IMG/VR virus record: IMGVR_UViG_3300032050_013907
Location: 1-32,182 of that record
Source: a virus
Reading direction: 5' to 3' (one strand)
Length of the DNA: 32,182 nt
Numbering within the stretch: position 1 is the stretch's first letter; each line of letters opens with the position of its first letter. Positions 2,436-29,283 of the stretch are shown piece after piece. The position numbers and the translations under genes are program-made. The notes beneath the pieces were generated by a model. It searched no databases. It was not told where the DNA came from and saw nothing but the letters and a program-made list of their open reading frames with translations.

Positions 2436-3025
2436 AATCCTTCCAGGAAAGGTTCGAAGAATATCAATTGAGTGTCTCTGGTCTGTCTTCCTTATCCGAT
2501 GCTTCATTTCTGTTTTGGAGAGAAAATTATCTTGACAAAAAATCAACCTTACAGATTTCTGATTTTCTAGTTGGTAAAATATATTCCTTTGATTACAACG
2601 ATAAACTCGATAAATCAAAGAAATTCGTAAACAGAAGACCTCTTTTGTTTTTTATGGGATTCTTTAACTCCCAAGATAAACTTGTATTTAGTGGGCTAGA
2701 TTTAGTTCTTATTCCTCCTCAATATAGACTTGCTTTTTTCAGTAGAATAAGTAGTGTCTATGAATCCCAAATATCGACCAATGTTCAAAGGATAGAAAAA
2801 GGTGATGTTTTAGAACAGGTGCAATTAAAATGTGACTATCCAACTATGGATTTAATCATGAAAGGAATTCCTTGGAAGAATTCTTATAGAGCTTGGGATT
2901 TACAGAAAATAAGAGATGCAAAAGAAATTACCTACGAAGATTGGACTAGAATAGTATATCTGCATACCAGGGCAATTGAAGGGACCCCGATTGAAGAGAT
3001 ATATAAGAAAAACTCACTAGCATAA
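2432..3025 (+). CDS. Conserved T4-like phage protein of unknown function, between gp4 and portal
   Basis: A 197-aa protein with no clear catalytic motif. The central part reads as a beta-rich domain with GKIYSFDY, then NRRPLLFFMGFF, GLDLVLIPPQYRLAFF. From memory, this pattern (aromatic GK-Y-F-Y strand, P-L-hydrophobic strand, G-L-(D/N)-L..hPP..R) recurs in a conserved protein of T4-like marine phages whose function I cannot state with certainty. The C-terminal part is helical, with an MKGIPWKNSYRAWDL segment. Its position between head-completion and portal genes suggests a head or packaging role, for example a gp2-like DNA-end protector, but this is only positional inference. Start overlaps gp4 (ATGA) and its stop overlaps the portal start (TAATG). 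A late-promoter-like box lies inside its last codons. Confidence 0.6.
   Translation: MKSFQERFEEYQLSVSGLSSLSDASFLFWRENYLDKKSTLQISDFLVGKIYSFDYNDKLDKSKKFVNRRPLLFFMGFFNSQDKLVFSGLDLVLIPPQYRLAFFSRISSVYESQISTNVQRIEKGDVLEQVQLKCDYPTMDLIMKGIPWKNSYRAWDLQKIRDAKEITYEDWTRIVYLHTRAIEGTPIEEIYKKNSLA
2996..3007 (+). promoter_or_regulatory. Candidate late promoter for the portal genes, embedded in coding sequence
   Basis: GAGATATATAAG lies inside the 3' end of the preceding gene, 17 nt before the first portal ATG. Sequence and spacing match other late-type boxes in this window. Confidence 0.5.
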
Positions 3026-4629
3026 TGGCTGGATTTACAGATGGCAAAAAAACTTTTTTTAGCTCTATTGTAGAGAATATTAAAAAAGTGGGAAATTTCG
3101 GAATGGCTTATGGAGATCTAGTCGTAAAAAATTCCTATGCAGTTGGTGTTACTGAGGCACAATTTCTTAAGAAAGGTGGTATAAAGGATGAGTCATTCCT
3201 TTTCGGGATAAGAAAAGCAGATACCACAACAAAACAATACATAGCTTATTTTGATAAGGATTTCAAGAACAAAAGACATTATGTTCAAGGGTTTGCACAA
3301 AATCCGGAAATAGAATTCATATTAGATACTGTATGTGATGAATCGATAGTTTATGATGATAAGAATTTCTGGGCTTATTTCTCTTTCATGCAACATGAAG
3401 ATGTCGATAAAGAAATCTATGCTCAGACCCAAAAAAGATATAAAGAAATTTATAACCTATTTGGATTCAATCAGGATATCTCAGCTTGGCATTTATTCCG
3501 CAAATTTTTAGTAGAGGGAAATCTTGCTTTTGAAATAGTTTTCGATAAGAAAGGAAAAAGTATAGTTGGATTCAAAGAAATAGATGCAGCATCGTTAGTT
3601 CCAACTGTAGAAGCTCAGCCTGATGGATCTTTCGTTGATATCTGGATTCAATATCCTGATAATCCTTCCTTAACCAGAAAATTGTACGATTCGCAAATCA
3701 TCTATATAAGTTACGCCAAGGGTGGTGGTACAGCTTCGAGAATAAGCTACATTGAAAGATTAATAAGGTCATTCAATTTGCTTAGAATCATGGAGCACAC
3801 TAGGATAATTTGGAACGTGATGAATTCCTCTTATCGTATGGCTATGACTGTACCAATAGGTACAAAATCACCACAAAAAGCCAAACAAACTCTAGGTGAA
3901 CTTATGTCAATTTACAAAGAGGACATAAGATTAAATACAGACTCTGGTGAGTTAACAGTTGACGGAAGGCCAAAAATACAATTCTTCAAGAATTATTTAA
4001 TGCCATCTTCTCCTAATGGAACTCCAGATATTCAGCCTTTACCAGGAGCTGGTGATGCCACTGCATTTTCTGATACAAAGGCTCTTCAATATTTTGCAAA
4101 CAAATTAAGGATAGATTCAAAAGTTCCAGTTTCAAGATTTGGAAGAGAAGACAGCGGATCTGAAGGAACTATTTCCTTTGGAGCAGATGGATTGGATATG
4201 GAAGAAATTAGATTTAGTAAATTCATAAACAGGCTAAGGTCAATCTACCAAGAAATCTTAATGAAACCCCTCTGGGTCCAATTTTGTTTGGACTTTCCGC
4301 ATCTCAAAAATGACTATATAATTAAATCCGAATTTGGTCTTGATTACGTGAAAGAGAACATGTTTAAAGAAGCCAAGGAGATGGAAATTATGACAGCAAG
4401 AAAAGATCAAGTGATTAAAATATTGGGCTTGAAAAATTCAGAGGGTAAACCATATTTTAGTTTACAATTCTTGCTCGACAGATATCTTGGAATGACAGCT
4501 CAAGATAGAATTGATAACGAAAAAGCTAAGAAAGAAGCTGCTGAGAAGAAAAAAGAAGCAGAAGGAAAAGAGGGTGAGGGCACGGAAGAAACTAAACCTG
4601 AAGAAGCTGCAGGAGAATTTAAATTATAA
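3025..4629 (+). CDS. 20: Portal protein, gp20-like (copy 1)
   Basis: The portal forms the ring at the single packaging vertex through which DNA enters and to which the neck attaches; it also nucleates prohead assembly. This 534-aa protein matches T4 gp20 in length (524 aa) and pattern. Visible landmarks are AYFDKDF and ILDTVCDESIVYDD near residue 100, FLVEGNLAFEIVFD, GFKEIDAASLVPTVE, a helix with ERLIRSFNLLRIMEHTRI, TVPIGTKSPQKAKQTLGELM, and the C-terminal RFSKFINRLRSIYQEI preceding the family's KPLW segment. The last 40 residues are a Lys/Glu-rich low-complexity tail. Start is the TAATG overlap with the previous gene. It is followed after 2 nt by a second homologous portal gene; the two share the same order of motifs and about half of their residues by eye. 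Confidence 0.9.
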   Translation: MAGFTDGKKTFFSSIVENIKKVGNFGMAYGDLVVKNSYAVGVTEAQFLKKGGIKDESFLFGIRKADTTTKQYIAYFDKDFKNKRHYVQGFAQNPEIEFILDTVCDESIVYDDKNFWAYFSFMQHEDVDKEIYAQTQKRYKEIYNLFGFNQDISAWHLFRKFLVEGNLAFEIVFDKKGKSIVGFKEIDAASLVPTVEAQPDGSFVDIWIQYPDNPSLTRKLYDSQIIYISYAKGGGTASRISYIERLIRSFNLLRIMEHTRIIWNVMNSSYRMAMTVPIGTKSPQKAKQTLGELMSIYKEDIRLNTDSGELTVDGRPKIQFFKNYLMPSSPNGTPDIQPLPGAGDATAFSDTKALQYFANKLRIDSKVPVSRFGREDSGSEGTISFGADGLDMEEIRFSKFINRLRSIYQEILMKPLWVQFCLDFPHLKNDYIIKSEFGLDYVKENMFKEAKEMEIMTARKDQVIKILGLKNSEGKPYFSLQFLLDRYLGMTAQDRIDNEKAKKEAAEKKKEAEGKEGEGTEETKPEEAAGEFKL

Positions 4630-4631
4630 CT

Positions 4632-6278
4632 ATGGCTGGATTTATAGATAACTTAGGAAAATTCAATCCCAACATATCGAGGATTATTAAAAATCTCAGC
4701 GGGTTAGGAAGCTTTGGAATGGATTACAAAGATCTTGTGATTCAAGACTCTATGGCTATTGGTATATCTGAAGCCAATATGAGGGAAAGATTCGGTTTTT
4801 CTGAGGATGACGAAGATTTCATTTATAGTATAGCTGCTCAAGACACATCTAATAGGAAATATATCGCTTATTTTGATAAAGACTATCCTTACAAAAGAGA
4901 TTTCTTAAGAACGTTTGCCCTCAATGCTGAAATAGAATACATTCTAGACACTATTTGTGATGAAGCCATAGTGTACGATGAGAAAAACTTCTTTTGTCAT
5001 CCTAGCATGATTAATATGGATTTAAAGGAGGATGTGGTACAAGCGCTTAGGAAGAACTTCAGAAAACTTTATGTACTTCATAATTTTGCCAATGGGTTAA
5101 CTGGTTGGCAATATTTCAGACAACTTTTAGTTGAAGGGTTTCTTGCTTTTGAGATCATATACTCTAGCGATGGTAAAGAAATTGTGGGATTCAAAGAACT
5201 CGATGCAACAAGTTTAACCCCTGCAGTTGAAAAAAGACCCGATGGCACAAGAGAATCTATCTGGTGGCAATACTATGGTGAAACTACAAGACAAAGAAGA
5301 CTTTTGGATGCCCAAGTTATTTACATATCTTATGCTAAGGCCAACACTGCATCAAGAACATCTTATACGGAAAGATTGATTAGATCTTATAACTTGTTAA
5401 AGATCATGGAGCATTCTAGGATTATCTGGAATGTTATGAACTCGCAGTTTAGAATTAAAATGACAGTTCCTATCGGAAGTAAGTCACCACAAAAGGCAAA
5501 AGAGACACTTGGCGAGCTTATGTCAGTTTACAAGGAGGATATTAAACTCGATACAACATCAGGAGAACTTGCTATTAATGGAAGACCAGATTTACAGTTT
5601 TATAAAAACTATCTTTTTCCTCAACAAGCAGGGAATAGTGTTAAAGTAGAAACCATTAATGCTCAAGGGCCAAACTTGAACATTATGGATTCTGTTGTTT
5701 ATTTCTATAACAAACTCAGACAGGATTCAAAAATACCTTACAATAGATTTAGTGCAAGATGGGGGGTTGGGGCTGGAAATCCTTTTAAAATCCCAGCAGA
5801 TGGATCTGAAAGAGATGAAGTAAGATTTTCAAAGTTTGTTACAAGATTAAGGTCTATATTCCAAGAGATTGTTGTTAAACCCCTTTGGATTCAAATGTGT
5901 TTAGATTTTCCAAGCCTTAAGAATGACCCAGAATTTAGAAGTCAAATAGGGGTTAAGTTCGAAAGTGACAATGTTTTTGGTGAATCCAGAGAAATTGAGC
6001 AACTTATTAAGAAAATCGATTTTGTTACATCATTGGGAGAAATCAAAGAAAATGTAAACGATGAAGAAGTACAATATTTCAACCAAGACTTCCTCATTGA
6101 AAGGTTCTTGGATTTAAACTATGATGACATTAGGATGAACAAAACTTACATTGAAAAAAGTCAAGGAGCTTCTGGTGTAGCAACAGAAGGGGGAGCAGCA
6201 CCAGCTGAAACTACTCCAGCTGCTGAAACACCTGCGACAGAAACTCCAGCTGCCGAAACACCACCTGCAGAAGCATAA
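4632..6278 (+). CDS. Portal protein, gp20-like (copy 2, tandem paralog)
   Basis: A 548-aa paralog of the preceding gene, collinear over nearly its whole length: identical MAGF start, then AYFDKDYPYKRDF, ILDTICDEAIVYDE, LVEGFLAFEIIY, YTERLIRSYNLLKIMEHS, RIIWNVMNS and SPQKAKETLGELMSVYKED. Differences cluster in three places: the acidic insertion around residue 57 (SEDDEDF), the region around residues 330-370 that differs also in T4-like portals, and the C-terminal tail, which here is Ala/Pro/Thr/Glu-rich with repeated AAETP-like units instead of Lys/Glu-rich. No stop or frameshift breaks it and all core segments remain, so both copies look functional. Only 2 nt separate the genes, so they are probably co-transcribed. 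It could build mixed rings, act at another stage, or be a specialised duplicate. Confidence 0.85.
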   Translation: MAGFIDNLGKFNPNISRIIKNLSGLGSFGMDYKDLVIQDSMAIGISEANMRERFGFSEDDEDFIYSIAAQDTSNRKYIAYFDKDYPYKRDFLRTFALNAEIEYILDTICDEAIVYDEKNFFCHPSMINMDLKEDVVQALRKNFRKLYVLHNFANGLTGWQYFRQLLVEGFLAFEIIYSSDGKEIVGFKELDATSLTPAVEKRPDGTRESIWWQYYGETTRQRRLLDAQVIYISYAKANTASRTSYTERLIRSYNLLKIMEHSRIIWNVMNSQFRIKMTVPIGSKSPQKAKETLGELMSVYKEDIKLDTTSGELAINGRPDLQFYKNYLFPQQAGNSVKVETINAQGPNLNIMDSVVYFYNKLRQDSKIPYNRFSARWGVGAGNPFKIPADGSERDEVRFSKFVTRLRSIFQEIVVKPLWIQMCLDFPSLKNDPEFRSQIGVKFESDNVFGESREIEQLIKKIDFVTSLGEIKENVNDEEVQYFNQDFLIERFLDLNYDDIRMNKTYIEKSQGASGVATEGGAAPAETTPAAETPATETPAAETPPAEA

Positions 6279-22701: not shown

Positions 22702-24747
22702 ATGGAAAAAAACCAAGATTACGTACTGATTCTAGAAAAATCAACTGTAAATCTTTCAAGTAAGAAAGAAGGAGGAGAATATTTTCTAGAAGGTGTAGCA
22801 GCAGTTTTCGGAATTGAGAATTCTAATCATAGAATTTACGAGGAGAAGGAATATTTGCCACATCTTGATTATTTGAAAAAGAAGATTGAACAAAATCGTT
22901 TGGTTGGTGAATTAGATCACCCAAAAGAATTCGATGTTTCTTTAAAGAACATATCTCACATTATCACAGATTTAGATTATGATAATAAAGACAGATGTGT
23001 AAAGATCAAGGTTAAGCTTCTTGATACTCCAGCCGGTAAAATTGCACAGAATCTTGTTGATGCAGGTATTCCTATTTCTATTTCTTCTAGAGCAGCAGGT
23101 AACGTAAAAGAAAATAAAAAAGTAGAGATCAAGAAGATCTTTACTTATGATCTAGTAGCTGATCCTGGTTTTGAAAATGCTCAATTAGAAAGAGTTAGCG
23201 AAAGTTTATACGAAAGCTTAGGTTTTACTTCCTTTGCAGAAGAGATCAAAAGTTCAATAGTTTCTTCTTTAACCAATATAAACGAGAGCTTAGGATTGAG
23301 AAAAAATTCTAACACGCAGATATATAGAATTAAAGATATAGAGAAGATCTCTAAACTTTTAGAAAATACAAATAATACAAAGAATATGGACAATAACTTT
23401 GTCACAGCAGAAGAATTAAACGAATATTCACTCATTCTTAAAAAGGAAATGGATTCTTTGAAGAATGAAATGAAATCCTTTTCAAAAGGTTCTACTTCTA
23501 GTAACAACGATTCAGCATTAGAGGAGAGAATTCAAAGACTTGAAAAGTATTCAGAATATCTTGCAGAGAACTTAGAATCTGCAATTAACTTTGGTGATTA
23601 CTTAGCAGAGAATTTAGAAGGTTCTATTTCTTATAATAAGTATCTTGCTGAAAATCTTGACAAAGCTATTTCATATGCTAAATACTTAGCAGAGCACGTA
23701 GATGGCAACATTTCTTATTCAGAATATATTGCAGAGAATCTTGACAACAATATTGCTTACAGCAAATATATCGCTGAGAATTTAGATAAGAACATTTCCT
23801 ATTCAGAGTATCTTGCTGAAAACTTAGATAAGAACATTTCTTATTCTGAGTATCTTGCTGAGAACTTGGACAAGAACATCTCTTATGCTGAATACTTGGC
23901 TGAAAACGTTGACAGAAACATTTCTTACTCAGAATATCTCGCAGAGAAATTGGATAAGAACATCTCTTATTCTGATTATCTTGCTGAGAATCTAGATAAG
24001 AGCATTTCTTATTCAGATTACCTTGGTGAGAAAGTAAACGGAAACATTAACTACTCAGAATACTTAGCTGAAAAAGTTAAATCTGGTATTGAATACTCAC
24101 AATATTTGGCCGAGTCTATCAATAACAAAGGAATTAAAAATTCCGGTAATGATATGGCTAAACAAATTAATGATTCAGTAGAAAAAGGAAAAAGAACTTC
24201 TGGTTTCTCAGGTGATTACAATTCACTTTCTGGCAAAGTCGATCAATTAATTGAATCACTTAGCAAGAACAAAACTGAAGAAATCGTAAACGAAAATAAA
24301 TATTCTTTCTTAAAGCTTGTTGATGAACAAACAAAGAAAGGATTTATCTCTTTGAACGAGGCCGAAAAACAAAAGGTCGTTAAAGCTCTTAATGAGCAGA
24401 ATTACAGTTCAGGTATGGACGTAGTTCAAATTATGGGATCTGCTCTAACTGAACAAGCTCAGTCTGGAGAAAAATTCCTCGATATGATACCACAAGATTT
24501 GGTACCTGTTTGGAACTCTTTGAATGAATCACAGAAAGCATCAATTGTTGCTCAAAGTAAATTCTATCACTTAGACACTCCTTATCAGATTAACAACTTC
24601 TGGAGAACTAGAGGATTTCAAGCTCCACAGGCTAATTTGGAAAGATTAGACGAGTCCCAAAACCCTAATAATGCTACGAACAGCGGAATTAGCAACAGCT
24701 ATATCGCAAACATCGCAGCTGAATTAGACAAAAGATTTAAAAAATAA
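22702..24747 (+). CDS. 21: Prohead protease fused to a repetitive scaffold (gp21-gp22-like)
   Basis: The N-terminal part (about 25-165) is a T4 gp21-like prohead protease: FLEGVAAVFGIENSNHR, GELDHPKEFDVS with the likely catalytic His73, and GIPISISSRAAG with the likely catalytic Ser128 or 129, then YDLVADPGF. In T4 this enzyme cuts the scaffold and head proteins after (L/I)xE. The protein then continues, in the same frame, with a linker (LLENTNN near 219), a helical section (about 229-285), thirteen 14-residue repeats, a linker, and a conserved-looking C-terminal helical domain (SFLKLVDEQTKKGFISLNEA onwards). Positions match T4 order gp21, gp22, gp23, with the separate scaffold gene absent, so the C-terminal part is very likely the scaffold. 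An internal ATG at 23386 could yield the scaffold alone. Length is 681 aa. Confidence 0.85.
   Translation: MEKNQDYVLILEKSTVNLSSKKEGGEYFLEGVAAVFGIENSNHRIYEEKEYLPHLDYLKKKIEQNRLVGELDHPKEFDVSLKNISHIITDLDYDNKDRCVKIKVKLLDTPAGKIAQNLVDAGIPISISSRAAGNVKENKKVEIKKIFTYDLVADPGFENAQLERVSESLYESLGFTSFAEEIKSSIVSSLTNINESLGLRKNSNTQIYRIKDIEKISKLLENTNNTKNMDNNFVTAEELNEYSLILKKEMDSLKNEMKSFSKGSTSSNNDSALEERIQRLEKYSEYLAENLESAINFGDYLAENLEGSISYNKYLAENLDKAISYAKYLAEHVDGNISYSEYIAENLDNNIAYSKYIAENLDKNISYSEYLAENLDKNISYSEYLAENLDKNISYAEYLAENVDRNISYSEYLAEKLDKNISYSDYLAENLDKSISYSDYLGEKVNGNINYSEYLAEKVKSGIEYSQYLAESINNKGIKNSGNDMAKQINDSVEKGKRTSGFSGDYNSLSGKVDQLIESLSKNKTEEIVNENKYSFLKLVDEQTKKGFISLNEAEKQKVVKALNEQNYSSGMDVVQIMGSALTEQAQSGEKFLDMIPQDLVPVWNSLNESQKASIVAQSKFYHLDTPYQINNFWRTRGFQAPQANLERLDESQNPNNATNSGISNSYIANIAAELDKRFKK
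23318..23327 (+). promoter_or_regulatory. Candidate internal late promoter before the scaffold part
   Basis: AGATATATAG lies inside the protease-scaffold gene, 58 nt before the in-frame ATG 23386. It matches other boxes and would give an mRNA for scaffold alone. Evidence is sequence only. Confidence 0.4.
23386..24747 (+). other. Possible nested scaffold-only ORF (internal start)
   Basis: ATG 23386 is in frame at residue 229 and is preceded by an A-rich leader (aataatacaaagaat), similar to other starts here. The product, MDNNFVTAEELNEYS onwards, would be 453 aa, comprising the repeats and C-terminal domain without the protease. Nested scaffold starts are known in other phages (lambda Nu3 in gene C). 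The MCP gene follows and has no late-type box of its own, so this internal promoter could also feed the MCP. Confidence 0.4.
23557..24129 (+). repeat. Thirteen 42-bp repeats encoding YLAENLDKNISYSE
   Basis: Tandem units of exactly 42 bp (14 residues), 13 full copies plus a partial one starting at 24103. The consensus is YLAENLDKNISYSE. Nearly every unit keeps (L/I)-A-E at positions 2-4. Synonymous variation between units is high, while protein sequence is conserved, so purifying selection on the protein is likely. The unit is two heptads, compatible with an alpha-helical coiled coil. Confidence 0.9.
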
Positions 24748-24758
24748 GATCTAATAAA

Positions 24759-26531
24759 ATGCAACTCTTAAATCAAAACGAGATCTACGAAACATGGTCT
24801 CCCATTATTGAGAGCAAGACCGGCATGACTGATCGTTCAAAAGTAGAATGGCTTTCTAAATATTGCCACTTCCACTCACTTAACGAATCTGCTGGAGCTT
24901 ACAACTCTCTCGGTGCTTTAAATGGTATGGGTGCCATCATGCCTCCTGGTAACTACTCCGGTAGTAATGCAGCAGCTGGCCCAGGTAATGCTGGTTTTTA
25001 CTACAACAACACTTACAACGCTGGTACTCCTTATGTAGGTTCTGGTGATAAGTTCCCTTCACTTCTTCCATTGGCTATTCAGGTAGCTGCTAAAACCGTT
25101 GGTTTTGACATTGTTCCTGTTATTCCAATGAGCGGACCAACAGGGGTACTTTCTTATCTTGACTATGTGTATGCAGGTGGTACTTTGTCTGGTACTTCAA
25201 CAGATACTACTACCAACTTTACTGCAAACACACCTGATATGATTAAGGTGCCTATCGCTGTTGCTTCTCCTGTATTTGGTACTCTAACAGTTGGTAGTTA
25301 CTACATCATCTTAGTTACTGGAGCTACTGCATCATCCGATTCTGCTAAAGGTAAATTTGTTGGATACTCACGTATTGACGGTTTCCCAATTTTCCAGATC
25401 ACTGCATTAACTTCTGGTGATTCTATTGCCACAACAGTTACTGCTAACTCTGAAATTCGTTTAGCATCAAGCCAGGCTAACGACCAAACTATGACTACAA
25501 CTGGTAACGTTCTTGCTTTCTCCGGTGGTAACGCAGTATTGGTTAAGACATTAGAAGATCACATTCAAGGTTTCTCTGGTGCTGGTCAATCTAACACTAA
25601 TAACTGGCAAGGTCCATACGTAGATGGCACACAAAACTACGATCCAATGTTAAGAGGTGTTGCAGAATCAACTTATTACAAGTCACTTGGTCTTTCTACA
25701 TTCACTAAGTTTGTAGAAGCTGGTACTTTCCAAGTTGCTGCTTCTGTTACAACTGAGCAAATCCAAGACCTTAACAAACAGTTCGGTATCGACGTAGTTT
25801 CTATGATCGAAAACGCTCTTGTTAACGAGGTATCTCAGGCTATTAACAAGCACATTCTATCAAGAGGTTTTGCTCTTGGCTGGTCAAACCACTCACAGTT
25901 CTTAGTAACTGAGCAAACTAACCTTAACCTTAACTTGGTAATTGGTGGTGCTGCTTCAGGTTATGCAGTTCCAGATTACGTAGGTAAAATGGGTCTTGCT
26001 ATCACAGGTTCTGCTAAGCCAGGTTCAGTTGCTGGTCCTGCTTCAGGTACTTTTGAGAACTTATCAACAGTTCAAAGAAGACTTTACAGCCGTATTTTAG
26101 CTGCTGCTAACGTAGTTGCTAACAGAGGTCGTAGAGGTCCTGCTAACTTCATCGTTACTAACTCACAAATCGCGTCTGCTTTACAAGACATCAGTCAGTT
26201 CACATTCGCTCCGTTTACTAACACTCTTACTCAGAACAACGGTACACTTTACCCAGTAGGTTCACTTGCTGGTATGACTGTATATGTTGATCAGAACATG
26301 CAGTTCAGTGATACAAGAGTATTAGTTGGTAGAAAAGGTGCTGATGATGAGCCAGGTATGAAGTTCATGCCTTACATGATGGCTGAATCTATTCAGACAA
26401 TCTCTGAAGGTACAATGTCACCGAAGATCGCAGTTAAATCAAGATACGCTCTTGTTGAAGCTGGTCACCTTCCAGAAACAATGTACATCTGCTTCCACGT
26501 TAACGCTGGAACAAACACTGCTATTATCTAA
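24759..26531 (+). CDS. 23: Major capsid protein, gp23-like
   Basis: Forms the hexamers of the head (HK97 fold). This 590-aa protein matches T4 gp23 (521 aa) in overall pattern: N-terminal leader, a FPSLLPLAIQVAAKTVGFDI segment that begins the core, VPVIPMSGPTGVLSYLDYVY, a region of beta-rich insertions (about 150-280), a long helix with EQIQDLNKQFGIDVVSMIEN, and the C-terminal FIVTNSQIASALQ and KSRYALVEAGHLPE. The leader contains SLNE|SAGA: L-N-E at residues 41-43 is a probable maturation cleavage site, as after residue 65 in T4. Codons look different from neighbouring genes, with more AAC, CGT and GCT, typical of high expression. It has no late-type box of its own and is followed by a strong terminator. 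Confidence 0.9.
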   Translation: MQLLNQNEIYETWSPIIESKTGMTDRSKVEWLSKYCHFHSLNESAGAYNSLGALNGMGAIMPPGNYSGSNAAAGPGNAGFYYNNTYNAGTPYVGSGDKFPSLLPLAIQVAAKTVGFDIVPVIPMSGPTGVLSYLDYVYAGGTLSGTSTDTTTNFTANTPDMIKVPIAVASPVFGTLTVGSYYIILVTGATASSDSAKGKFVGYSRIDGFPIFQITALTSGDSIATTVTANSEIRLASSQANDQTMTTTGNVLAFSGGNAVLVKTLEDHIQGFSGAGQSNTNNWQGPYVDGTQNYDPMLRGVAESTYYKSLGLSTFTKFVEAGTFQVAASVTTEQIQDLNKQFGIDVVSMIENALVNEVSQAINKHILSRGFALGWSNHSQFLVTEQTNLNLNLVIGGAASGYAVPDYVGKMGLAITGSAKPGSVAGPASGTFENLSTVQRRLYSRILAAANVVANRGRRGPANFIVTNSQIASALQDISQFTFAPFTNTLTQNNGTLYPVGSLAGMTVYVDQNMQFSDTRVLVGRKGADDEPGMKFMPYMMAESIQTISEGTMSPKIAVKSRYALVEAGHLPETMYICFHVNAGTNTAII

Positions 26532-26624: not shown

Positions 26625-27605
26625 ATGTTATTTGAAAATATTAACCAATTCCAAAAAGCTAAGAACTATCTTTTGGAGAATGATAGGGACATAAGAAAAA
26701 CCTATGATTTACTAAAGAAAGATTTAGATTTTTCGCAGATGTCAGAGGGACAAATATTAGTAGCACTGAATTCTCTGAATGAGGGTTTAGGTGACACTAT
26801 AGCAAATTTTTTAGGTGGGGCTTTCGGCGGAGATATTTCAAAAATCAAGACTGTTCTGACCCAAATGAAAGAACAGGAGCTTAAATTTAATTCAGAGGAA
26901 TACCAAATTTACGATGAGTTTTATAGATCCTTACAAGATCAAAAGGCATTGGATAATGATCCAAATAATCCCAACTACCAAACGTTGAGTAAGGATCTAG
27001 TCAATTATAGAAATTCTCTTAATATGAGAATGAAAGAATTGAACAAAATGCACGAGGAAATATTTGATGTTTTGGAGCAGAAGATTAAAGACCTTACTGG
27101 AGATAACAAAAGAAAGAAAAAGTATTTCAACGCTCAAAGAGCAACAGATGTTTTAGAAACGAGAAATGACAGATACGAAAAGATCAAAGCAATAACTGCA
27201 AAGAGTAAGACTAGATCTAAAGATCTACAAGATTTCTTTGGGGTTAGTGTTGAGAGTGCAAAAAAACAAGCAGAGGATGCTAAAGTTAAAGCAGAAAAAG
27301 AGGTTAATTCATTAACCAACACTCCTGCAGCTTCTACTGGAACTACTACAAAGTCAAGAAAAGAATTTAAAGATGAACCAGAGAAATCTTTGAGTGAGGA
27401 GTTTGAAGCTATTAAAAATAGTGTAGGTGGGTATTTTTCTAAAAGAAGGGATATCGAAAAACTACAAAGAAAGGTAGAAGACGAAGTACACAAGTCTGAG
27501 TTTGATAAATATTCAGAAGGCAAGCAAAAGGATATCTACAGCATTTATAAGGACTGCGAAGAACTTTTAGATGTGTTAGCAAAAGAGGAAACCAAGATAA
27601 AATGA
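26625..27605 (+). CDS. Helical head-region protein, candidate capsid-interior protein 1
   Basis: A 326-aa protein of unknown family. It is predominantly helical and highly charged (KMHEEIFDVLEQKIKDL, KKQAEDAKVKAEKEV), with one Gly-rich turn (TIANFLGGAFGGDI). Possible protease sites are L-L-E at residues 16-18 and SLNEGLGD with L-N-E at 51-53; the latter looks like the SLNE site of the capsid protein. Starts a run of five downstream genes, preceded by a terminator and a late-type promoter. The stop overlaps the next start (ATGA). Packaging inside the head is inferred from leader pattern and location. Confidence 0.62.
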   Translation: MLFENINQFQKAKNYLLENDRDIRKTYDLLKKDLDFSQMSEGQILVALNSLNEGLGDTIANFLGGAFGGDISKIKTVLTQMKEQELKFNSEEYQIYDEFYRSLQDQKALDNDPNNPNYQTLSKDLVNYRNSLNMRMKELNKMHEEIFDVLEQKIKDLTGDNKRKKKYFNAQRATDVLETRNDRYEKIKAITAKSKTRSKDLQDFFGVSVESAKKQAEDAKVKAEKEVNSLTNTPAASTGTTTKSRKEFKDEPEKSLSEEFEAIKNSVGGYFSKRRDIEKLQRKVEDEVHKSEFDKYSEGKQKDIYSIYKDCEELLDVLAKEETKIK

Positions 27606-28465
27606 AACTAAAAAGATTAGAAAGTTTTTCTATCAATGAAGGTGTATTGTCTTCAGTTTTTAAAGGGATTTCCGACATTTTTAAAACAAAAAAAGGAAAA
27701 ATTGATTCTCTTTTAAAACAGATTAAAAAGGCTAAGTCTGAAGAGATAGACAACCGGATTACGATTGAAAAAGAAATATCTGTTATTCCTAAGGAGAACA
27801 CTCCGGAATACAGATTTTTAATTTCTAATTTGGAAAGACAAGCTAGAGTTTATGCTAATTTGAAAATGCAAGAAATAAATGCACTTTTAAAAGAAGCTGA
27901 AATCCAAATAGAAAAAAATCCTAAACTTCAAGCTTACTTCAGTGCAGAAGTAGCAAAAATAGAAGCTGAAAGTACAGAGAAATTACTTAAAGGACTTAAC
28001 AAATATAAATCCTCTGGAGATCTCAATTTAATTGCAGCTCAGTTTGATTCATTGGTAAAAGATGCAAACAAGAAATCTAGCTATTTTGAAGATTTAATGG
28101 GAAAAGGACAATCTGTTGAAAATTACACTACAGAAATTCCTGAAGAAATTGCACCTTTTTTGAATTCTACAAATTCAGAAGCCCAGTCTATAATAGATGG
28201 ATACGATGAAAAGGAATTAAAATCTTTATTAGACAAGCTTAGGGATTTTAAGTTCGATGTTGAGATAAGGAGTAAGATGCAGATAGAAGAAATCAGAAAA
28301 GAACTCAAGCAAGCTAAAAAATTTGCAGATTCACAGACTATCGATAGTTTGGAAAATGAAGAGGCAAAGATTAGAATACATTATAAAAATATGTTTGAAA
28401 TGCTCAGATCAAAGATTTCCCTGATCGACAAAAAAATAAAAGCTCTCAAGTATGAAAATTACTAG
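27602..28465 (+). CDS. Helical head-region protein, candidate capsid-interior protein 2
   Basis: A 287-aa protein, almost entirely predicted helix, rich in Lys and Glu (ALLKEAEIQIEKNPKLQA, EIRKELKQAKKFADSQ). N-terminus MKLKRLESFSINEGVLSS ends in I-N-E at residues 11-13 followed by Gly, the form of a T4 internal-protein leader. After it comes SVFKGISDIFKTKKGKI, an amphipathic-looking stretch. Coupled to both neighbours (ATGA upstream, 14-nt overlap downstream). No homolog recognised. Confidence 0.62.
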   Translation: MKLKRLESFSINEGVLSSVFKGISDIFKTKKGKIDSLLKQIKKAKSEEIDNRITIEKEISVIPKENTPEYRFLISNLERQARVYANLKMQEINALLKEAEIQIEKNPKLQAYFSAEVAKIEAESTEKLLKGLNKYKSSGDLNLIAAQFDSLVKDANKKSSYFEDLMGKGQSVENYTTEIPEEIAPFLNSTNSEAQSIIDGYDEKELKSLLDKLRDFKFDVEIRSKMQIEEIRKELKQAKKFADSQTIDSLENEEAKIRIHYKNMFEMLRSKISLIDKKIKALKYENY

Positions 28466-28764: not shown

Positions 28765-29283
28765 ATGAGGAATAATTATTTACCTTACAACCCTGTTTTT
28801 GAATCTCTTTCAGAACAGGCTAAAAAGCATCAATATGTTAGACTTAATGAAGCAGCTATGAGTGCTGATAAAGTGGAAGATTACGCTAAAAGAATCTTTT
28901 CAACATTAGCATCTAATGTTCAACATTTCTTTTTAACTATACCAGACGATGTTAAAGCTAAGGTTTTTCCTCTTTTCATCCAAGCAGCTACTACTCCATT
29001 ACCTCCGCAAACAAGACTTGGAGATGTAATTAAAACAGCAGAAGAGCTTTGGAGCAAAGCTAAAACTGAAGCTGCAGCTTCTAAAAACAAGGAGCTTTAT
29101 GCAAGTGTTTTTGATAAAGTCTCAAAGGGATTTGAACAAATTGCTAGGGCTTATGAAGCTTTACAAGCAGAATCTGGAGATTTTACCAACGATCCAGCTA
29201 TTACAGCAAGCGTAATCGAACAAATTAACGCATTCAATGCAAAGTTTATCGAGGATTGGAAATCAAAAACTTCACAGATTTAA
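28765..29283 (+). CDS. Helical head-region protein, candidate capsid-interior protein 4
   Basis: A 172-aa protein, all-helical by composition (IEQINAFNAKFIEDW, YAKRIFSTLASNVQHF). N-terminus begins MRNNYLPYNPVFESLSEQ and has a clear VRLNEAAM, with L-N-E at residues 27-29, plus L-S-E at 15-17. The NP-(V/I)-(F/Y)-E-S motif also occurs in the 886-aa protein (INPIYESM), suggesting related leaders. Unknown family; low in Cys and Trp. Located between other candidate packaged proteins. Confidence 0.6.
   Translation: MRNNYLPYNPVFESLSEQAKKHQYVRLNEAAMSADKVEDYAKRIFSTLASNVQHFFLTIPDDVKAKVFPLFIQAATTPLPPQTRLGDVIKTAEELWSKAKTEAAASKNKELYASVFDKVSKGFEQIARAYEALQAESGDFTNDPAITASVIEQINAFNAKFIEDWKSKTSQI

Follow-up and report, generated by a model that had tools for sequence, protein, structure and literature searches.

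The window analysed here, a 32,182-nucleotide stretch of viral DNA (IMG/VR record IMGVR_UViG_3300032050_013907, positions 1 to 32,182), carries a gene whose product joins a prohead protease of the T4 gp21 type to a scaffold built in large part of 14-residue repeats, each bearing a predicted (L/I)xE cut site. Judged from its sequence, this large phage seems to assemble the temporary core of the head out of helical units bearing the cut signal of the attached protease. Scaffold removal is a required step of T4-type head building, and with one cut predicted for each structural repeat, the way in which core architecture relates to core digestion can be tested directly. The gene for the presumed substrate, the major capsid protein (MCP), starts 11 bases downstream of the fusion gene, and the portal genes are found further upstream, separated from it by other genes (Table 1).

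Table 1. Features of the protease-scaffold fusion gene and of the adjoining capsid protein gene in the window.
Feature	Position	Strand	Basis
Protease-scaffold fusion gene, 681 amino acids	22702..24747	+	Translation; Pfam and PHROG matches
Prohead protease part, residues 1-195	22702..23286	+	Foldseek and profile match to T4 gp21; invariant columns
Candidate N-terminal activation site, Ile-Leu-Glu12	22729..22737	+	E12 invariant in alignment A3 (56 rows)
Candidate self-release site at the protease/scaffold border, Ile-Asn-Glu195/Ser	23278..23286	+	N194 and E195 invariant in alignment A3 (56 rows)
Linker and helical lead-in, residues 196-285	23287..23556	+	AF2 helices, low to moderate confidence
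Thirteen 14-residue units, residues 286-467, consensus YLAENLDKNISYSE, one (L/I)xE each	23557..24102	+	Gapless
Partial fourteenth unit YLAESINNKGIKNS, retaining LAE471/S	24103..24144	+	Follows the array
C-terminal scaffold domain, residues 482-681, helical	24145..24744	+	A few invariant residues
MCP, gp23 family, presumed substrate	24759..26531	+	Pfam Gp23, 1.5e-39
Presumed MCP propeptide cleavage site, Leu41-Asn42-Glu43/Ser	24879..24887	+	Glu43 column invariant, 80/80

The Protease Part of the Fusion

The N-terminal part of the fusion had been described as a prohead protease in the initial annotation, and Pfam, PHROG and fold matches all bear this out. The prohead core protease families Peptidase_S77 (E 4.2e-10, 39.9 bits against a curated cut-off of 27) and Peptidase_S80 (E 1.6e-8, 34.5 bits against 23.4) match within residues 22-161, and the PHROG match is to phrog_207, head maturation protease (E 4.2e-37). 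An AlphaFold2 (AF2) model, built on 56 aligned sequences (the window and IMG/VR loci) and with ten-residue confidence means of 67 to 88 over residues 31-150, matches T4 gp21 (5jbl) in Foldseek with E 1.6e-7 and a TM score of 0.67 by target length, the next group being herpesvirus assemblins (E 5.4e-3 and up); a profile search also reaches 5jbl (E 2.3e-4). The motifs GELDH73P and SSR130, which we take to have catalytic roles, fall in mostly invariant columns of alignment A3. The N-terminal part is accordingly classed, by homology, as a T4 gp21-type prohead protease. T4 gp21 itself loses nine N-terminal residues by self-cleavage, according to excerpts of one account (PMC9958956).

General scans, which included no comparison of the scaffold with gp22, gave no scaffold family for the fusion in Pfam and protease families only in PHROGs. 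Pfam matches to LTI65_PGEED, FERM_F2 and DUF7603 were set aside as repeat artefacts, as no stretch passes alone and the latter two lie below their cut-offs.

The 14-Residue Array

The thirteen tandem repeats first described are present as gapless units, followed by a partial fourteenth. Within residues 196-681, self-identity reaches 0.305 at offset 14 and 0.293 at offset 28, while no other offset from 7 to 39 does better than 0.104, and the array is also visible as a DNA repeat of period 42 over 23707-24032 (Tandem Repeats Finder). The presence of a cleavage-like motif in each unit is likewise upheld: [L/I]-x-E occurs in 13/13 units, with Leu or Ile at position 2 (13/13), Ala at position 3 (12/13, one unit having Gly) and Glu at position 4 (13/13), together with Tyr1 (13/13), Ile10 (13/13) and Tyr12 (12/13). 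The central units 6-11 resemble one another.

The motif is also present beyond the repeats: elsewhere in the scaffold, where the protease ends (INE195) and in the propeptide of the capsid protein. Residues 196-681 hold 23 [LI]xE sites against 8.0 in shuffles, a count reached by 0/2000 of them, and with the thirteen units removed 10 sites remain against 4.1 expected (3/2000 shuffles reach 10); those of the C-terminal domain end at Glu 518, 553, 565, 584, 609 and 651. A hypothetical cut at every [LI]xE of this region would give fourteen fragments of exactly 14 residues and no fragment exceeding 47.

Conservation of the Unit Among Homologs

The homologs comprised 112 fusion proteins, drawn from 25 loci of one search, the best 80 of 590 relatives and named phage records, with some contigs present twice. 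The window itself (L001) and loci L036 and L037 were excluded from unit detection, and 112 of the 114 others gave a fusion, the exceptions being phage PAU (L034) and L018, a fragment that lacks the protease. The unit detector was a scoring matrix with positions 2, 3 and 4 masked; it does not pick up the period-14 repeats present in L106 and L115. Conservation was tabulated for the 76 sequences that share less than 90% identity and hold at least three units, which gave 794 units with an in-register neighbour. A genome scan found two relatives among 85 pattern matches, and these were left out of the statistics.

Glu at position 4 is present in 760/794 units, and although this position was masked its entropy is the lowest in the unit (0.38 bits), followed by Tyr12 (0.60), Tyr1 (0.78) and Ile10 (0.92 bits), so that the proposed check of whether the Glu is the best conserved residue came out positive. 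Position 2 is Leu in 55%, Ile in 29% and Val in 14% of units; [LI]xE is found in 645/794 and [LIVM]xE in 754/794. When low-scoring in-register units are filled in, 816/861 carry Glu4, which is present in every unit of 47/76 sequences and in at least 90% of the units of 63/76. Position 11, seven residues from position 4 and equivalent to it in the heptad, is the most variable of all (2.93 bits).

Selection on the pattern despite varied codons, as originally suggested, is also borne out by seven close relatives with equal arrays, in which pairwise codon differences are synonymous in 133 cases and nonsynonymous in 6 at Glu4, 102 and 0 at Tyr1, and 62 and 0 at Ile10. Orthologous units of different proteins agree at 12.7/14 positions, against 8.9/14 for units within one protein. 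The array or a degenerate version of it is kept in homologs down to about 33% identity; unit number by detection runs from 3 to 15 among sequences with at least three, and the arrays of close relatives differ in length (12 to 15 units).

Many large environmental phages carry the unit, records of 462 kb (degenerate array) to 735 kb among them. A relative with a few units and a portal-like neighbour is encoded on L119, a contig of 606.7 kb assigned to a SAR324 metagenome-assembled genome, which may be a mis-binned huge phage. Membership in the bS21 phage clade (excerpts of PMC9723584) is not claimed, Ribosomal_S21 being found in 0/7 records searched, which are possibly fragments.

The Motif Outside the Repeats

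The same motif is enriched where the repeat is absent. In 23 family fusions of less than 60% identity, from which detected units had been removed, the scaffolds hold 456 [LIVM]-x-Glu (gap 2) against 236 expected from shuffles, while counts at gaps 1, 3 and 4 come close to those expected and gap 5 shows a slight surplus (278 vs 230). Replacing Glu by Asp, Lys, Gln or Ser at gap 2 gives no enrichment, and Asn a marginal one (160 vs 141, z +2.0); among the residues preceding the gap, Leu (2.17-fold), Ile (2.27-fold) and Val (1.60-fold) are enriched, and Met, Phe, Ala and Tyr are not. As far as sequence statistics can tell, the L/I-X-E rule stated for T4 gp21 in excerpts of PMC9026906 is recovered from the family sequences alone.

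Scaffolds without the 14-residue unit behave alike. T4 gp22 has 16 (L/I)xE sites against 5.8 expected (z 5.0), and seven such scaffolds pooled (T4 gp22, P-SSM4, vB_OspM_OC, phiKT1024, PAU, PA5oct and PTm1) have 117 against 50.6; among them, none of gaps 1, 3, 4 and 5 is enriched, and gaps 1 and 4 are depleted (z -2.4 and -3.6). PAU gp155 and PA5oct EST35_0153 were treated as scaffolds by position, and PAU gp152, labelled scaffolding in its record, was left out. Within the window, 28 of the 48 listed open reading frames (ORFs) were scanned, 19 minus-strand ORFs and one nested ORF being excluded: the gap-2 z score is +5.2 for the fusion, +2.5 for the MCP and at most 1.8 for all others, and in a pool of six non-scaffold ORFs that contain Glu, the 27 sites seen equal the 27.0 expected. 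The row of phage Lak-B5 was discarded from the enrichment table because its frame is closed by an in-frame stop.

A further putative scaffold was noted in Flavobacterium phage MaF61 (L123, 3881-8095; 'putative prohead scaffold', 1404 amino acids), which has a protease-like N-terminus by tblastn, no Pfam protease match and many LNE sites, with 31 [LI]xE against 17.1 in residues 216-1404.

The Capsid Protein and its Presumed Cleavage Site

The Glu of the presumed MCP propeptide site is invariant in 80/80 family MCPs, with Leu or Ile at P3 in 73/80, and the residue that follows is Ser or Asn in 67/80 (Asn in 30/80). An attempt to equate Glu43 with Glu65 of T4 gp23 by alignment failed, the two falling 51 columns apart, which leaves conservation and general position as the sole grounds for their equivalence. 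The family enrichment, the external scaffolds and the MCP propeptide together with the junction Glu are three lines of sequence evidence that are independent of the repeat. The initial annotation had carried cleavage specificity over from T4; it can now be argued from the family's own enriched sites and from the invariant MCP Glu, and its assignment to this protease stays presumptive.

Three ORFs downstream of the MCP gene (26625-27605, 27602-28465 and 28765-29283) have near-N-terminal LNE/G, INE/G or LNE/A motifs, from residues 51, 11 and 27, and are candidate internal head proteins with cleavable propeptides. Upstream, two T4-type portal genes lie in tandem (3025-4629 and 4632-6278), both matching Pfam Portal_T4 and 48% identical (254/528 aligned positions); to our knowledge, a duplicated portal is unusual.

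A Rod That May Carry its Own Cut Sites

In the AF2 model, helices span residues 213-223, 236-262, 271-360 and 364-444, the near-continuous helix from 271 to 444 being of low confidence (ten-residue means of about 42 to 67), and the C-terminal domain model is weak (mean predicted local distance difference test 66.6, predicted template modelling score 0.31). The hydrophobicity of the array is strongest at a period of 3.5 residues, among ten periods tried. The repeats would thus form a long, helical, coiled-coil-like rod round which the capsid protein assembles. Once the prohead is finished, the protease would become active in the manner of T4, free itself after INE195, trim the MCP after LNE43 and break down the rod after (L/I)xE. 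With one site in each structural unit of two heptads, most of the rod would end up as 14-residue peptides, NLDKNISYSEYLAE for example, that would exit or be kept as internal peptides.

We consider it probable that the gene encodes a gp21-type protease fused to its scaffold, a coiled-coil-like rod whose structural unit doubles as its digestion unit. The fusion, the repeats, and the conservation and enrichment of the motif are read from sequence, the protease function and the T4 pathway are taken from homology, and cutting inside the repeats, the completeness of cutting and the fate of the peptides are inferred. More tentatively, and with somewhat less confidence than doubt, the unit may have been shaped as both an assembly and a digestion module, a perforated rod in which every two heptads hold a single scissile bond and which would yield equal peptides by design, not through scattered sites. 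Period-14 arrays across the family and the differently built period-16 LSE array of phage PTm1 may reflect selection for uniform peptides of a size suited to exit.

Points Against Cleavage and Rival Explanations

A number of observations weigh against this favoured reading. The residue after the Glu in the repeats is Asn in 434, Lys in 138, His in 78 and Ser in 56 of 816 units, whereas 321 family scaffold sites outside the repeats prefer Ser next (87 vs 25.2, with Lys, 46 vs 32.5, and Asn, 32 vs 26.0, both slightly raised), as do the 117 external scaffold sites (32 vs 8.6); since Ser is rare after the repeat Glu and favoured elsewhere, the repeat sites may be poor substrates. Asn follows the presumed MCP site in 30 of the 80 family MCPs, so that LAE/N need not be unusable, if perhaps slow. 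Proteases in general cut stable helices poorly. Moreover, Tyr1, Ala3, Ile10 and Tyr12 are nearly as conserved as Glu4, and the unit must therefore be structurally constrained as well.

Loss of the Glu with repeat length kept, named in the initial annotation as a finding that would speak against cleavage, does occur in a minority of homologs. Period 14 is kept and Glu is often lost in L030 (Glu retained in 3/7 in-register units) and L091 (retained in 6/11), and L115 (6001-8334) has, by eye, a 14-residue repeat with the Glu displaced. In a period-14 variant in L106 (6001-7473), six of the eight units read VTE or VVE, also by eye. Over the whole scaffold, the [LIVM]xE z score is +4.1 in L030 (21 sites), +4.2 in L106, +2.7 in L110 and in phage Lak-C1, and a weak +1.7 in L115.

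The unit also appears, with its Glu mostly kept, in two small proteins of two huge phages (records LR745206 and LR756501), whose genes lie hundreds of kilobases away from that of the scaffold; this would not be expected if the role of the unit were proteolytic alone. Each has three or four units. The ORF of L036 (1936-2187, minus strand, 83 amino acids) lies near a head-tail adaptor gene (phrog_211) and has Glu in 3/4 units; that of L037 (1561-2184, plus strand, 207 amino acids) has Glu in 3/3, both counted by eye, and collagen-like and weak tail-fibre matches. These ORFs fit a structural role outside the scaffold, or a core tag. A third weak unit site was seen in LR756501 at 716337-716429.

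The statistics call for caution too. Use of the best-scoring 80 of 590 loci favours homologs that resemble the query, Glu included. Homologous positions are counted once per sequence in kin that are not independent, and z values over homologs are therefore overstated: at gap 2, the protease portions of the same 23 fusions also show an excess, with 151 sites where 82 are expected. The per-protein and external-scaffold results are safer than the homolog-pooled ones. Eleven control MCPs and portals pooled (the MCPs as whole proteins, T4 gp23 excepted) give 84 against 62.8 (z 3.0, 1.3-fold), so that a mild general excess exists.

The main rival explanation is a purely structural coiled-coil rod whose chains are joined by fixed contacts of Tyr, Ala, Glu and Ile; the rod would be freed whole at the flanking INE and LNE sites, and the likeness of LAE to the cleavage motif would be incidental. 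The 3.5-residue peak, the near-unbroken if low-confidence AF2 helix, the conservation of the other four residues almost to the level of Glu4, the unit in small non-scaffold proteins and the departure from the favoured Ser all suit such a rod, and the closer agreement of orthologous than of within-protein units indicates that units are individually constrained. Against it stands the enrichment of the same spacing and residue preference outside the repeats and in scaffolds without the unit; nothing in a heptad alone favours that gap, gaps 1 and 4 being depleted externally, and position 11, the heptad equivalent of Glu4, varies freely. We hold this explanation to be rather unlikely, at something like one chance among several.

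It is very improbable that the array acts as a ruler whose unit number sets the length of the rod and hence the size of the head. Unit number does vary, and excerpts of PMC9026906 give core proteins beside gp22 likely roles in T4 head size, but by eye there is no relation between unit number and genome size among contigs of which most may be fragments: 13 units on the 735 kb record, 11 to 12 on records of 634-642 kb, 4 (degenerate) on that of 462 kb, 12 and 8 on contigs of 343 kb and 238 kb, respectively, and none detected in the 540 kb Lak-C1. Least credible of all is a recent expansion by replication slippage with little functional importance, which the likeness of units 6-11 and the 12 to 15 units of close relatives might suggest, and which is disfavoured by the large synonymous excess at conserved positions, by orthologous units far more alike than paralogous ones and by persistence of the array, or its degenerate form, to about 33% identity.

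On balance, the repeats and their motif are confirmed as observations, and digestion of the rod by its own protease is partly supported, with strong comparative backing.

Comparison With Known Systems

Annotated protease-scaffold fusions (PTm1) and, in excerpts of PMC9958956 and PMC9026906, the degradation of the T4 scaffold by a protease with L/I-X-E specificity are already known. New, at the level of sequence, are a structural repeat with a predicted site at exact 14-residue spacing and a quantified motif signature common to scaffolds without the unit; neither a 14-residue scaffold repeat nor this enrichment was found in the titles and abstract openings listed by searches of open-access papers. 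The gap-2 Leu/Ile-x-Glu statistic may help to find scaffold genes that lack recognisable homology.

The herpesvirus assemblins share a related protease fold with the fusion, as judged by Foldseek. In assemblins of the UL26 type the protease is likewise joined to a scaffold, with one cut site for release and another close to the C-terminus; they are not known to have a regular array of sites, and their specificity is different. Closer in motif are phiKZ gp175 and SPN3US gp245, which, in excerpts of PMC9026906 and PMC10052503, cut after Glu in a short motif and have redundant propeptide sites; unlike the predicted case here, the SPN3US motif is A-x-E and the substrates are propeptide-bearing head and ejection proteins, not a repeat scaffold. 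Lak-C1 (MK250029.1) has a protease-scaffold fusion with an NES junction, but with an acidic linker, no detected unit and a weaker enrichment (10 vs 5.6, z 2.1). In Tenacibaculum phage PTm1 (BBI90692.1, 'prohead core scaffolding protein and protease'), the annotated fusion also lies upstream of the MCP gene and its scaffold is enriched in [LI]xE (19 vs 7.0), whereas its own repeat (L033, 6004-7698) differs in sequence and, by eye and autocorrelation, has a period of 16/32 with LSE/G or LSE/S.

The nearest well-known counterpart is T4, whose core structure is described as unresolved, and whose gp22 as broken down to small peptides, in excerpts of PMC9958956. The fusion resembles a gp22-like scaffold in adjoining the protease, in standing directly before a gp23-type MCP and in its enriched (L/I)xE. 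Protease fold and gene order (protease-scaffold-MCP) are the same, both scaffolds are rich in (L/I)xE, the enrichment of gp22 being matched by 23 vs 8.0 in the window, and gp22 even has one LAEN. In T4, however, protease and scaffold are two separate genes and the sites are irregular, with predicted fragments of 4 to 41 residues, whereas in the window they form one polypeptide, with predicted sites at an exact spacing of 14 residues.

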